Assembly (NCBI GenBank): GCA_002070025.1
Contig: MWCL01000018.1
Span: 1 to 33,551 of the forward strand
Direction of reading: 5' to 3'
DNA from: Spirochaetes bacterium ADurb.Bin215
Lineage (GTDB): Bacteria; Spirochaetota; Spirochaetia; Treponematales; Treponemataceae
DNA length: 33,551 nucleotides
The notes below the pieces were generated by a model. That model was not told the DNA's origin and searched no databases. It saw only the letters and a list, made by a program, of their open reading frames with translations. This document shows, in pieces, positions 15,116-33,222 of the stretch (its first letter is position 1; each line of letters opens with the position of its first letter). A program made the translations under genes and the position numbers.

Positions 15116-15934
15116 CTATTCAAGCGCATCTACCAGCCAGTCGAGGGCGGTTTCATCCCCCCGGCCGGTGGTGTCGTGCATTTCCACGAAAAAATGCCCC
15201 CGCTTTTCATATTCCCGGTAGCGGGAGTGCGGCGCAAGTACGTTCAGTATTTTCGCGGTTCGGAGACCCTGTTCATAAATCCCCGCGTCATTGCGTGAAA
15301 GCGCGCAATAGTAGCTAACCCGCGCGGAATTGAACAACTCGCGAATACTGGAAGAATAGTAGGAACTCCCGGTCATGCCTGCGCGGAAAATGAAGGGATC
15401 GTATCCCGTCATTTCGTGCACGAAAGCGGCACCTTGAGAAAAACCGTACCCGGCGATGCGGGAGGGGTCAATTACCCGATGCTGGATGCAGATATTCTGG
15501 ATGAGCCGGGAATACGCGTGGGGATCGGAAAAGTACTCTACCCGTGACTGGGGTACCAGAACGGCGACACCCTGTGGACCGAAACGGTTTTGAACCATAT
15601 CGGTGGTGAATATCCGGCCGAACCGGTCCTTGGCGGTGTGTTTTCCGGTGGACCCGTGAAAACACACAATCATCGGAATGGATTCAGGCACCAAGGCCTT
15701 TTTTTCAAGCTCAACCGCGTCACCGCGGAGATGTTCCGGCAAGTAGAGACTGTACGTGATACCGGCTGATGTTTTAGCCCAGATCCACCGTTCGTCCTGC
15801 GTCGATTCCTCCGGCCAGTACGCGTTGTCGTAGTGGAGGGCCGGAGCTTTCGTGAAGCGGAGTGCGGTAAAGGTGAGTCCGATGAGGCAGAGAAGGGCGG
15901 TGAGTGTTGCGATGGTTCGTGTTCTTGCATTCAT
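15116..15934 (-). CDS. Exported or membrane-anchored alpha/beta hydrolase (esterase-like)
   Basis: 272 aa. A hydrophobic N-terminal segment (about 8-26) after basic residues looks like a signal peptide or anchor without a lipobox. The body has the alpha/beta-hydrolase fold signs: oxyanion-loop FHGSTG (His93-Gly94), nucleophile elbow GYGFSQG with Ser166, and a late catalytic His in RGHFFVEMHD. The arrangement recalls the LpqC/polyhydroxybutyrate depolymerase and feruloyl-esterase group. Given the xylan-type sugar enzymes elsewhere, a carbohydrate esterase is possible, but this is inference only. Start 15934 is preferred over an in-frame TTG at 15961 because GAGGA is seven bases upstream and the TTG lies inside the repeat at 15951-15973. 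It is divergent from glyS. Confidence 0.8.
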   Translation of the reverse strand: MNARTRTIATLTALLCLIGLTFTALRFTKAPALHYDNAYWPEESTQDERWIWAKTSAGITYSLYLPEHLRGDAVELEKKALVPESIPMIVCFHGSTGKHTAKDRFGRIFTTDMVQNRFGPQGVAVLVPQSRVEYFSDPHAYSRLIQNICIQHRVIDPSRIAGYGFSQGAAFVHEMTGYDPFIFRAGMTGSSYYSSSIRELFNSARVSYYCALSRNDAGIYEQGLRTAKILNVLAPHSRYREYEKRGHFFVEMHDTTGRGDETALDWLVDALE

Positions 15935-15950
15935 GGGGGCATCCTCGGGT

Positions 15951-15973
15951 ACTGCTATCAAAATTGTTGAAAC
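15951..15973 (+). repeat. 22-nt intergenic repeat, copy 1
   Basis: Contains CTGCTATCAAAATTGTTGAA and flanking bases; a 23-bp stretch is identical to copy 2 (15991-16013), and 22 bp are identical to copy 3 (33177-33198). Inside each copy TCAA-N5-TTGA forms a small dyad. The copy lies 17 bp upstream of the hydrolase start codon. Confidence 0.9.
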
Positions 15974-15990
15974 GTGAAGTGCTGTACCAT

Positions 15991-16013
15991 ACTGCTATCA
16001 AAATTGTTGAAAC
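15991..16013 (+). repeat. 22-nt intergenic repeat, copy 2
   Basis: Exact 23-bp direct repeat of copy 1 with a 40-bp period, close to four helical turns, so both copies face roughly the same side of the DNA. It sits between the divergent hydrolase and glyS promoter regions, about 55 bp upstream of the predicted glyS -35. CTTTTC just after it pairs with GAAAAG 11 bases further on, a weak hairpin. Confidence 0.9.
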
Positions 16014-16150: not shown

Positions 16151-17503
16151 ATGGACGATCATGCGGCTACAATGGAAAAAATCGTAAGCCTTTCAAAACG
16201 GCGCGGTTTTGTGTTTCAATCTTCGGAGATTTACGGCGGACAAAACGGCGCCTGGGACTACGGCCCCCTCGGAATTGAACTCAAAAATAACATACAGCGG
16301 GCCTGGTGGCGGGAAATGACCCAGCTCCACGACAATATTGTGGGTCTGGACGCGGCGATTCTCATGCATCCCCGTGTCTGGGAAGCGTCGGGACACGTAG
16401 AAAATTTTACCGATCCTCTCGTTGACTGCAAGAAATGCAAGAGCCGGTTCCGTGCCGACCAGATTGACCAGGAAAAGCTGGCAAAGAAAGAATGTCCCGA
16501 ATGCGGCGGCGAACTTACCGATACCCGCAAATTCAATCTCATGTTCAAGACGTCCATCGGTCCGGCAGAAGATTCATCGAATACCATCTTCCTCCGCCCG
16601 GAGACCGCACAGGGTATTTATGTAAACTACAAGAATATCGCTCAATCAAACCGGCTCAAGATTCCGTTCGGGATCGCGCAGGTCGGCAAGGCGTTCCGGA
16701 ACGAAATCGTCACCAAGAACTTCATTTTCCGCACATGCGAATTCGAGCAGATGGAAATGCAGTTTTTCGTAAAACCCGGCGAAGACGTGAAGTGGTTCGA
16801 TTTCTGGCGCGAACAGCGCTGGGCTTTTTACCAGAAACACGGTATTCGCATGGACAAGCTCCGCTGGCACCAGCATGGTCCGGACGAGCTCGCCCATTAC
16901 GCGAAAGACGCCTGGGATATCGAGTACGAATTCCCCATGGGCTTTCGCGAGCTCGAAGGGGTGCACAATCGTACCGACTTCGACCTCAAGAGGCATACCG
17001 AATACTCCGGCAAGGATCTGCAGTACATTGACCAGGACAACGGCAATGACCGGTTTATCCCCTACATCATTGAAACTTCCGCCGGGCTCACACGTAATCT
17101 TCTCATGTTCCTCTGCGATGCGTATGAGGAAGAAAAGGTTGCCGACAAGGGTAATGCCGACGACTGGCGCACGGTTCTCCGGTTCCATCCCAAGATCGCG
17201 CCCGTCACGGTTGCCGTGCTTCCGCTCATGAAAAAGGACGGTCTCGCGGAACTTGCGCAGGACATCCGGCAGGAACTGAAAGAAGAGTTCATGACCGACT
17301 ATGATCAGGCAGGCGCCATCGGGAAACGGTATCGCCGCCAGGATGAGGCGGGAACGCCCTTCTGTGTGACCGTGGACTATGACTCAAAGGAAGACAATAC
17401 CGTCACCCTCCGTTTCCGTGATTCCATGGAGCAGGTACGTATTCCCCGTTCGGAACTGGTTGAACGGATCCGCACAGAGATAAAGAACTACAAGCGGATA
17501 TAA
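16151..17503 (+). CDS. glyS: Glycyl-tRNA synthetase, homodimeric type
   Basis: Class II synthetase of the single-chain (alpha2, eukaryote/archaea-like) type, 450 aa, not the alpha2beta2 type of E. coli. The N-terminal motif-1 region has GAWDYGPLGIELKNNI. Residues 93-118 carry CxxC...CxxC (Cys93, 96, 115, 118), a zinc-ribbon insert. Motif 2/3 sequences include FLRPETAQGIYVNY and GKAFRNEI. The anticodon-binding domain occupies the last ~110 residues (IAPVTVAVLPL onward). Start 16151 is chosen because AAGGAG precedes it; the frame is open to an ATG at 16067 but that lies in the promoter. Only 17 bases separate its stop from the ROK regulator ATG, implying cotranscription. Confidence 0.97.
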   Translation: MDDHAATMEKIVSLSKRRGFVFQSSEIYGGQNGAWDYGPLGIELKNNIQRAWWREMTQLHDNIVGLDAAILMHPRVWEASGHVENFTDPLVDCKKCKSRFRADQIDQEKLAKKECPECGGELTDTRKFNLMFKTSIGPAEDSSNTIFLRPETAQGIYVNYKNIAQSNRLKIPFGIAQVGKAFRNEIVTKNFIFRTCEFEQMEMQFFVKPGEDVKWFDFWREQRWAFYQKHGIRMDKLRWHQHGPDELAHYAKDAWDIEYEFPMGFRELEGVHNRTDFDLKRHTEYSGKDLQYIDQDNGNDRFIPYIIETSAGLTRNLLMFLCDAYEEEKVADKGNADDWRTVLRFHPKIAPVTVAVLPLMKKDGLAELAQDIRQELKEEFMTDYDQAGAIGKRYRRQDEAGTPFCVTVDYDSKEDNTVTLRFRDSMEQVRIPRSELVERIRTEIKNYKRI

Positions 17504-31275: not shown

Positions 31276-31311
31276 ATGAATCTACATCAACGGTTTGTTC
31301 ATCTATTATAA
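31276..31311 (+). CDS. Possible 11-aa leaderless upstream ORF
   Basis: ATG at 31276, encoding MNLHQRFVHLL, stop TAA at 31309-31311. The ATG sits where the promoter predicts the first transcribed base. It is out of frame with the EAL gene and overlaps its in-frame TTG at 31295. It may be a leader peptide controlling re-initiation, or simply a chance ORF. Coding evidence is too short to judge. Confidence 0.3.
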   Translation: MNLHQRFVHLL

Positions 31312-33172
31312 CTTCCTTTTTTCCTTCAAATTGTCAGATAACTCGGTTCCGTTCTTGCATCGCATGCGGGTCGCGTCCATCTATGTGGTAACGGGTGTGT
31401 ACTTTGTTGCCGCCGCGGTGAACCTTTCGTTTGTTCTTGATAAAAAAGCCTATCTTACCGCGGGTTTTCTGGTCGCCTATCTGGTCTTCGCGCTCGTTAC
31501 GCTCATTGTCCTGTGGACAACGCGCAGGACGGAATGGGCAAAGCTCTGTCTGGGATTCTGTGTTCTCCTGCTTATTCTTGAACAGATACTCGATGGCGGC
31601 GGTGTGTTTGGTCTGGGTGTTCTCTATCTTGCGTTCGGTTTTTCTGTCGCGTATCCCCTGTTCGGTATTGTCCCTACGATAGTGTTCATGATTCTATATT
31701 ACAGCGGACTCCTGTTCCGCCTGTCTGCCGGGAACTTTCTTCCCACGTCAATATTCAATAGCTCCGAAATTACTCTCAGAATGCTTATAATTCTCGGTAT
31801 GGCTCTTGTATTGCAGGCAACCACCTGTTTTGCCATTGAAGTGATTATTCGGCATCTGTCCCGTCTGGCTTATTTTGACCAGGTTACCCGCCTCCCGAAC
31901 CGCTTTAAATTTCTGTCCTTCCTTCACGACGGTATTCTCCGAAACCGTAAAGAACCCCGTCCGCTCAGTGTGGTCGCCGTTAAAACCGTGAACATGAACA
32001 AATTGAATACCATGCTTGGAAATGCGCTTGCGGATGATCTGCTCAGGAATGTAGGTTCACGCATTTCGGGCTATCGAAACGCTACCCGGGCCGTAGGCCG
32101 CTGGAGCAGTTCCGTATTTGTGTTGTATACCGATTTGCATGAACTGAGTCATCTGGAGCGGTACACGGCCGAACTGATGGCTGCGCTTTCGGAACCCTAT
32201 CTCGTGGACGGCCGTGTGGTTTCGGTTTTCTTTAACAGTGCGGTAGCCCGGTGTCCCGAAGACTCATGCGAACCCCCTGAACTGGTCAACAAGGCAATCT
32301 CCCTCCTCGAACAAACCCGTTGCCGCCCGGGAGATGTCGCCTTTTATTCCAAAGATATACAGTGCTGCCAGCTCAGGATGTTCAGCCTGCTGGATGATCT
32401 GTCCAATGCCGATTTTGACCGGGACTTTTACCTTGTGTATCAGCCCAAAGTCCGTGTTTCGGACAAGGGTTGTGCGGGAGCGGAGATACTGCTACGCTGG
32501 AATAGCCACGGGCGGGGCGACATTTCCCCGGGCGAATTCATTCCCGTCGCGGAACAATGCGGTATGATTCACCGCATAAGCCGCTGGGTTATTCAGCGCA
32601 GCTTTACCGAGATCGCGGCAATGTCCGCAGCCGATCCAGAACTCTTGCTGGACAAGTTATTCGCGATCAATCTGTCCGTAACCGACCTCTATGACCGGGA
32701 GTTCGTTGACTTCATTGAAATCATGCAACACCGGTACGGGATTCCCTCCTCCGTGATTGAATTTGAAATTACGGAAGGCGTCATGCTCGACGATGATCCC
32801 CGCGTCGCTGAAAACATTGACCAGCTGCTTTTACGAAAATTCAGGATCGCCATAGACGATTTCGGTACCGGATATTCGAGTCTCGGCTACCTGCACCGGT
32901 TACGAGTACATAACCTCAAGATAGACCGGAGCTTTGTTCAGGGTATGTCGGGGCAGGAATCGGGAGACAAATCCGCCCTGATCGATGCGATAATTTCCAT
33001 GAGCAAGTCTCTCAAGATCCAGATAACGGCCGAAGGAGTGGAGACGAGTCAACAGTTTTCGTATCTGGTGGAACGGGGATGCGATCTGGTACAGGGCTTT
33101 CTGTTCAGCAAGGGTCTCAGGAAGGATGAGTACGTGAAGTACTGCCGCATGGCGGCAATACCGGTGGTATAA
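31295..33172 (+). CDS. Membrane c-di-GMP phosphodiesterase (degenerate GGDEF, intact EAL)
   Basis: Up to 625 aa. Residues about 24-185 contain roughly five or six transmembrane helices, a membrane sensor. The GGDEF domain starts normally (FDQVTRLPNR) but its signature is RWSSSVF at 269-275, so diguanylate cyclase activity is not expected. The EAL domain is complete: Glu397 (EILLRW), Asn459, Glu491/Glu494 (EFEITEG), Asp521-Asp522 (DDFGTGYSSL), Lys542 (KIDRSF), Glu580 (AEGVET) and Gln600 (QGFLFSK). It should hydrolyse c-di-GMP. The start is uncertain: the frame begins at TTG 31295 with no Shine-Dalgarno; a TTG at 31331 or ATG 31364 are alternatives. It ends five bases before the palindromic repeat. 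Confidence 0.9.
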   Translation: MFIYYNFLFSFKLSDNSVPFLHRMRVASIYVVTGVYFVAAAVNLSFVLDKKAYLTAGFLVAYLVFALVTLIVLWTTRRTEWAKLCLGFCVLLLILEQILDGGGVFGLGVLYLAFGFSVAYPLFGIVPTIVFMILYYSGLLFRLSAGNFLPTSIFNSSEITLRMLIILGMALVLQATTCFAIEVIIRHLSRLAYFDQVTRLPNRFKFLSFLHDGILRNRKEPRPLSVVAVKTVNMNKLNTMLGNALADDLLRNVGSRISGYRNATRAVGRWSSSVFVLYTDLHELSHLERYTAELMAALSEPYLVDGRVVSVFFNSAVARCPEDSCEPPELVNKAISLLEQTRCRPGDVAFYSKDIQCCQLRMFSLLDDLSNADFDRDFYLVYQPKVRVSDKGCAGAEILLRWNSHGRGDISPGEFIPVAEQCGMIHRISRWVIQRSFTEIAAMSAADPELLLDKLFAINLSVTDLYDREFVDFIEIMQHRYGIPSSVIEFEITEGVMLDDDPRVAENIDQLLLRKFRIAIDDFGTGYSSLGYLHRLRVHNLKIDRSFVQGMSGQESGDKSALIDAIISMSKSLKIQITAEGVETSQQFSYLVERGCDLVQGFLFSKGLRKDEYVKYCRMAAIPVV

Positions 33173-33176
33173 ACAG

Positions 33177-33222
33177 ACTGCTATCAAAATTGTTGAAAAG
33201 TTTTCAACAAAATTGATAGCAG
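33177..33222. repeat. Repeat copy 3 paired with an inverted near-copy (palindrome)
   Basis: The left arm (33177-33198) is the same 22 nt as at 15951 and 15991. The right arm (33201-33222) is its reverse complement apart from two adjacent bases in the centre of the unit. The arms are separated by a single G, so RNA would fold into a long hairpin with a 2x2 internal loop. It fills the gap between two convergent genes. No T-run follows on either strand, so it is not a classical intrinsic terminator. Confidence 0.9.

Follow-up and report, generated by a model that had tools for sequence, protein, structure and literature searches.

The window, i.e., the whole 33,551-nt stretch analysed, is contig C18 of a 2.6-Mb draft genome in 189 contigs (G000). 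It carries four copies of a short repeat, two in the gap between a hydrolase-like gene and glyS and two behind a GGDEF-EAL gene (Table 1). The direct copies in the gap are identical over 24 bp (TACTGCTATCAAAATTGTTGAAAC, 15950-15973 and 15990-16013; period 40 bp), rather than over the 23 bp given in an earlier note on this DNA, and the third copy has 22 bp in common with them, as that note had reported for a site 17 kb away. An inverted fourth copy, which was overlooked at the time, forms a tail-to-tail pair with the third across a 5-bp spacer. The identity was rightly called far beyond chance: 100 shuffles of the 33.5 kb yielded 0 matches, and none is expected. The dyad described for each unit, TCAA-N5-TTGA, is indeed present, but it is probably incidental since other variants of the same end repeat (TCGAAGCTTGTTG and TCGAACCTTGTTG) do not contain it.

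Table 1. Repeat units and neighbouring genes in the window, and single units within conserved genes
Feature	Genome	Positions	Strand	Remark
Solo unit 1, 22 bp, ACTGCTATCAAAATTGTTGAAA	G000 (window)	15951..15972	+	starts ~17 bp upstream of predicted hydrolase-like start codon (minus-strand ORF)
Solo unit 2, 22 bp	G000 (window)	15991..16012	+	direct repeat of unit 1 at 40-bp pitch; ~140 bp upstream of predicted glyS start
Unit 3, 22 bp	G000 (window)	33177..33198	+	~5 bp past stop codon of GGDEF-EAL gene
Unit 4, 2 mismatches	G000 (window)	33203..33222	-	inverted relative to unit 3, tail-to-tail
Hydrolase-like ORF	G000 (window)	15116..15934	-	context; name from the earlier note, no Pfam match
Glycyl-tRNA synthetase gene glyS	G000 (window)	16151..17503	+	context; Pfam tRNA-synt_2b and HGTP_anticodon
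GGDEF-EAL gene	G000 (window)	31295..33172	+	context; stop codon ahead of units 3 and 4
Unit in zinc-ribbon regulator gene				no gap at unit relative to homologs
Unit in TPM-domain-like gene				no gap at unit relative to homologs
Unit in sugar-phosphate-type nucleotidyltransferase gene				no gap at unit relative to homologs
Unit in oligopeptidase PepF gene, genome's own variant	G036			no gap at unit relative to homologs
Unit in BirA gene				no gap at unit relative to solved-structure sequences
Unit in FliI-type ATPase gene				no gap at unit relative to solved-structure sequences; unit copy off by one base
Unit in SbcC gene	G046			no gap at unit relative to solved-structure sequences

A search of the whole genome for the 20-bp core, allowing up to three mismatches as the earlier note had proposed, returned 196 copies, hence far more than the window's own, against none for a reversed-pattern control. 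The conserved unit is 22 bp long (A-CTGCTAYCAAAATTGTTGAA-A), with sharp edges and unconserved flanks, and occurs in two main variants, TATC and TACC. Site statistics for G000 were drawn from stretches that total about 905 kb and had been selected around the listed copies. There, 113 units match perfectly while 22, 11, 10, and 9 carry one, two, three, and four mismatches, respectively. The 156 units with at most three mismatches are distributed over 115 sites, of which 85 are single, 17 are direct pairs, 4 are triples, and 9 include an inverted unit. In 25 of 32 cases direct repeats are spaced at 21-23 bp, and the 40-bp pitch of the window was found once more. About 28 units in these stretches resemble the ends of an insertion sequence (IS; 11 left ends and 17 right ends), and 91 sites are not associated with an IS.

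The unit A-CTGCTAYCAAAATTGTTGAA-A is well supported as the terminal inverted repeat (TIR) of a multi-copy spirochete IS family. At some contig ends of G000 a zinc-ribbon transposase ORF starts about 60 bp after it, and at others it is followed by a gene of that kind in antisense, 3' end first, with at least 11 IS copies in all; a complete IS, about 1.38 kb long and bounded by variant TIRs, lies on contig C29 (L111). The unit is thus found at both ends with a transposase between them, from left and right ends on separate contigs and from the C29 copy with its variant ends. Five ISs in genome G046 (L112, L121, L126, L128, and L130; about 1.25-1.29 kb, open frames of 387-391 aa) have homologous TIRs (AGTTCCTCGAACCTTGTTGG, AGTGCCACCAAAATTGTTGGG, and ACTGCACCGAAGATTGTGGTA), and homologous ISs of other spirochete genera bear homologous end repeats. 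It is this transposase context at contig ends, together with the C29 copy and the five G046 copies, that identifies the unit. The zinc-ribbon transposase is about 375-405 aa long, with copies at L119 and L101 (G001, contigs C49 and C57), at L111 and in the five G046 elements; a CxxxxC and CxxC pair and the motifs DGFES and TD..Y are among its invariant residues, and the candidate D-D-E residues lie in DGFES, TDE/K..Y, and LDRELRKD. No Pfam or NCBIfam model matched it above cut-off and no PDB entry did so, a weak ISL3-like HTH signal apart, and a comparison of the IS with plasmid records gave no match. Judged by Pfam, NCBIfam, and PDB, the IS family is uncatalogued.

The right IS ends of some subfamilies (G000 L224:6916 and L232:9859) carry an inner inverted octamer (CTGCTACC..GGTAGCAG), which together with the end repeat could form a hairpin. 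An origin of the units as IS21 ends was considered and rejected, as the istB element of G001 is not bounded by units and G000 has weak partial istB matches only. The istB genes of this IS21-like element are found at L101:471-3171 (contig C57) and L108 (contig C18) of G001, and on C57 the istA/istB pair lies beside a copy of the new IS family that is broken and contains a run of N.

The earlier note preferred to read the first two window copies as a pair of operator sites upstream of glyS and a hydrolase, and direct repeats at 40 bp inside a divergent promoter region do invite such a reading. With gene context taken from a simple codon-usage gene caller, site density in the G000 stretches was 1.07 per kb between genes and 0.012 per kb within them. 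Convergent gaps held 27 of the 74 intergenic non-IS sites where 12.6 were expected by length (P about 8e-5), tandem gaps held 29 (36.2 expected), and divergent gaps, with 18 (25.2 expected), had the lowest density per kb. In tandem gaps 25 of the 29 sites are closer to the stop codon than to the start. Units adjoin stop codons and terminators, and in some cases the unit itself supplies the stop codon of the upstream gene. The distribution in G000, including the distances to start codons, does therefore not show the promoter-region preference expected of a transcription-factor site. As 3' ends are favoured over promoters genome-wide, as a 40-bp pitch is atypical of the family, and as the motif is an IS end, paired operators of glyS or the hydrolase gene are very improbable. 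The other possibility raised at the time, a small interspersed repeat, proved right. The four window copies are ordinary members of the family, and nothing points to a regulatory role for them.

Among 11 same-genus relatives only G001 has the 20-bp core in number (92 copies), and a degenerate end-repeat pattern found 61 copies in G036, 28 in G046, 14 in G050, and 6 in G037, with 0 or 1 in nearly all remaining genomes and a control near 0. Each genome has its own unit variants, and all genomes with many copies are drafts. G000 and G001 (median amino-acid identity 50%; of 20 adjacencies in common, one has a unit, and this in G001 only) are too divergent for judging positional conservation of units. 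It is conceivable that the units are selected host sites, bound by a nucleoid protein or regulator or acting as 3'-end RNA elements, whose sequence IS ends use or mimic. Near-perfect conservation of 22 bp between unconserved flanks, the position beside stop codons and terminators, and units within genes that fit native protein motifs (see below) would all agree with this. We nevertheless consider it unlikely, as units in number are confined to one of the 11 relatives, as each genome's variant resembles the ends of the IS family rather than one common host motif, and as intermediates with one to four mismatches are few, which is unlike sites built by point mutation.

Most units are solo, without partners or fragments. 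A degenerate second end was absent beside 58 single G000 units (12.5, against 11.6 for shuffled sequence, with 4 of the 58 exceeding the 95th percentile), and unit fragments of at least 12 nt outside full units were absent from the sampled G000 stretches. Partial-unit or gene-conversion tracts were rejected, none of at least 12 nt being present there. The fetched units of G036 and G046 are mostly single as well. Miniature inverted-repeat elements (MITEs) have two TIRs, a structure that is absent from the 58 single G000 units and present in 17 elements of G001; most fetched units of G000, G036, and G046 have one end and no interior. The short two-ended elements of G001 and G050 are like MITEs and carry these TIRs. 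Those of G001 are numerous, span 48-204 bp (e.g., L089:12364-12485 and L098:4429-4553) and occur alongside singles; several of 119-125 bp share a diverged interior (TGAGGCAGAA and GCGCGGAGCCGCCGCG) between nearly identical ends. Most G050 units terminate two-ended elements, in which about 75-95 bp separate the ends. Target site duplication gave no consistent signal in the 17 G001 elements or at the G046 ISs.

These two-ended elements, and two single G000 units that are followed by similar MITE-like sequence, provide the basis for the main rival account, in which solo units are passive remnants of IS or MITE insertions that have lost one end and the interior. Truncated ends would be expected from random deletion, and such decay is disfavoured because partners and fragments are lacking. 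Moreover, single units are no less conserved than inverted pairs (mean identity 0.897 and 0.879, respectively), and units within genes that leave the length unchanged would require a coincidence if they were made by deletion within an insertion. We therefore regard passive decay as improbable but not negligible.

For all seven single units tested within conserved genes, the alignment with homologs runs through the unit ungapped (Table 1; protein names were read from sequence, and the matches of BirA, the FliI-type ATPase, and SbcC to solved structures are search results). This ungapped alignment indicates that single in-gene units replace host codons and add no bases. Selection may enrich such constant-length cases, 22-bp insertions being frame-shifting; in-frame gains of 21 or 24 bp, which would be equally survivable, were absent among the single in-gene units tested. 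At BirA, the FliI-type ATPase, and SbcC the encoded peptide resembles the native one at that position. In FliI and SbcC the unit suits motifs native to the protein, and the underlying sequence might thus have been unit-like already. Elsewhere the similarity of homologs to the unit at the replaced site is low (4-11 of 21 nt in PepF and 9-13 of 24 in the nucleotidyltransferase), and homology-guided conversion is unsupported at these two sites, where homologs are little like the unit. A different outcome is seen on contig C24 of G036 (L276:3101-3192), where three in-frame units at 36-bp pitch in an esterase-like gene (SSSKPVG..SSSKLVG..GSSKLVG) form an array that is absent from homologs and thus an insertion. 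Between genes, insertion and replacement are indistinguishable because the nearest relatives are distant; the nucleotidyltransferase, for example, has 68-72% amino-acid identity to its closest two relatives.

DNA uptake sequences are known to occur in hundreds of copies, as constant-length copies within genes and as inverted pairs at gene ends. As all three features are found here, the units could in principle be uptake-like motifs dispersed through molecular drive, with DNA uptake being biased and followed by recombination. The unit is about twice as long as known uptake sequences, is arranged in head-to-tail arrays at 21-23 bp pitch, is identical with IS ends, and has very few near-matches, all of which make this explanation highly unlikely.

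The reading that we favour, with modest confidence, is that solo IS ends spread through IS-linked copying that usually replaces target DNA. That lone ends are mobile, and are moved by a copying mechanism, is what we infer from the arrangement of the sequences. The IS transposase, or repair of the cuts it makes, would copy a complete single TIR into a new site, usually replacing about 22 bp of target. Selection would then purge most in-gene copies so that survivors are left beside stop codons and in convergent gaps. As observed, the solo TIRs are dispersed as singles, head-to-tail arrays and, rarely, hairpins. Ordinary transposition does not easily explain length-neutral overwriting of genes, and we know of no DDE mechanism that moves one lone end. 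It is more speculative, and perhaps the less probable outcome, that a single 22-bp TIR is itself mobile, being copied by the IS machinery in place of an equal length of target with codons overwritten in frame, and that this has happened independently in several spirochete families with different variants.

A search of the literature for solo end repeats of bacterial ISs or for short-patch illegitimate recombination found nothing useful; several known systems offer partial parallels. Dispersed repeats of 21-27 nt that look mobile and are often nested or within minitransposons were reportedly described in Nostoc by Elhai and co-workers in 2008. They resemble the present units in being very small and mobile-looking; the present units differ in having a traced source, the ends of an IS family that has been identified. 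IS1272 inserts without target duplication by replacing target DNA, with new insertions just downstream of or at gene 3' ends (PMC5678879). The likeness to the present units, in the proposed replacement of target, the lack of a consistent target-duplication signal and the placement at gene 3' ends, is one of outcome: IS1272 swaps an inverted-repeat target for a whole IS, whereas here a lone 22-bp end would take the place of non-palindromic DNA at constant length. IS1272 may nevertheless serve as a precedent for replacement without target duplication.

Another close parallel is provided by REP/REPIN sequences and their RAYT transposases (PMC3116915), which likewise comprise hundreds of intergenic repeats of about 20 bp that favour 3' ends and occur singly, in tandem, or inverted, and a linked transposase flanked by the repeat. 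REP sequences have an imperfect palindromic core, whereas the unit holds the TCAA-N5-TTGA dyad only, which is not conserved across variants, and their partner is a Y1 (HUH) RAYT rather than a zinc-ribbon IS transposase. Two genes of the Y1/HUH type (PF01797) are present in G000 (L174 on contig C31 and L175 on C23), and neither is flanked by units. In Pseudomonas fluorescens SBW25, 61% of REPs are doublets and singlets are read as remnants (PMC3116915); the inverted doublet is there the conserved replicating unit, whereas here singles predominate and are undecayed.

Bacterial short interspersed repeats are usually without known origin, and here one has been linked to a definable IS family through the ends of its elements, a link that holds in several genomes, each with its own sequence variants. 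The constant-length units within genes point to the writing of a short sequence into the genome without insertion of bases. Should this be confirmed, few known mobile DNA units would be smaller, and the spread of tiny bacterial repeats, a long-standing question, would become directly testable.

Upstream of single G000 units the base composition has a weak one-sided bias (G at -14 to -12, A at -11, and T at -8 to -6), which possibly reflects a target preference near terminators.
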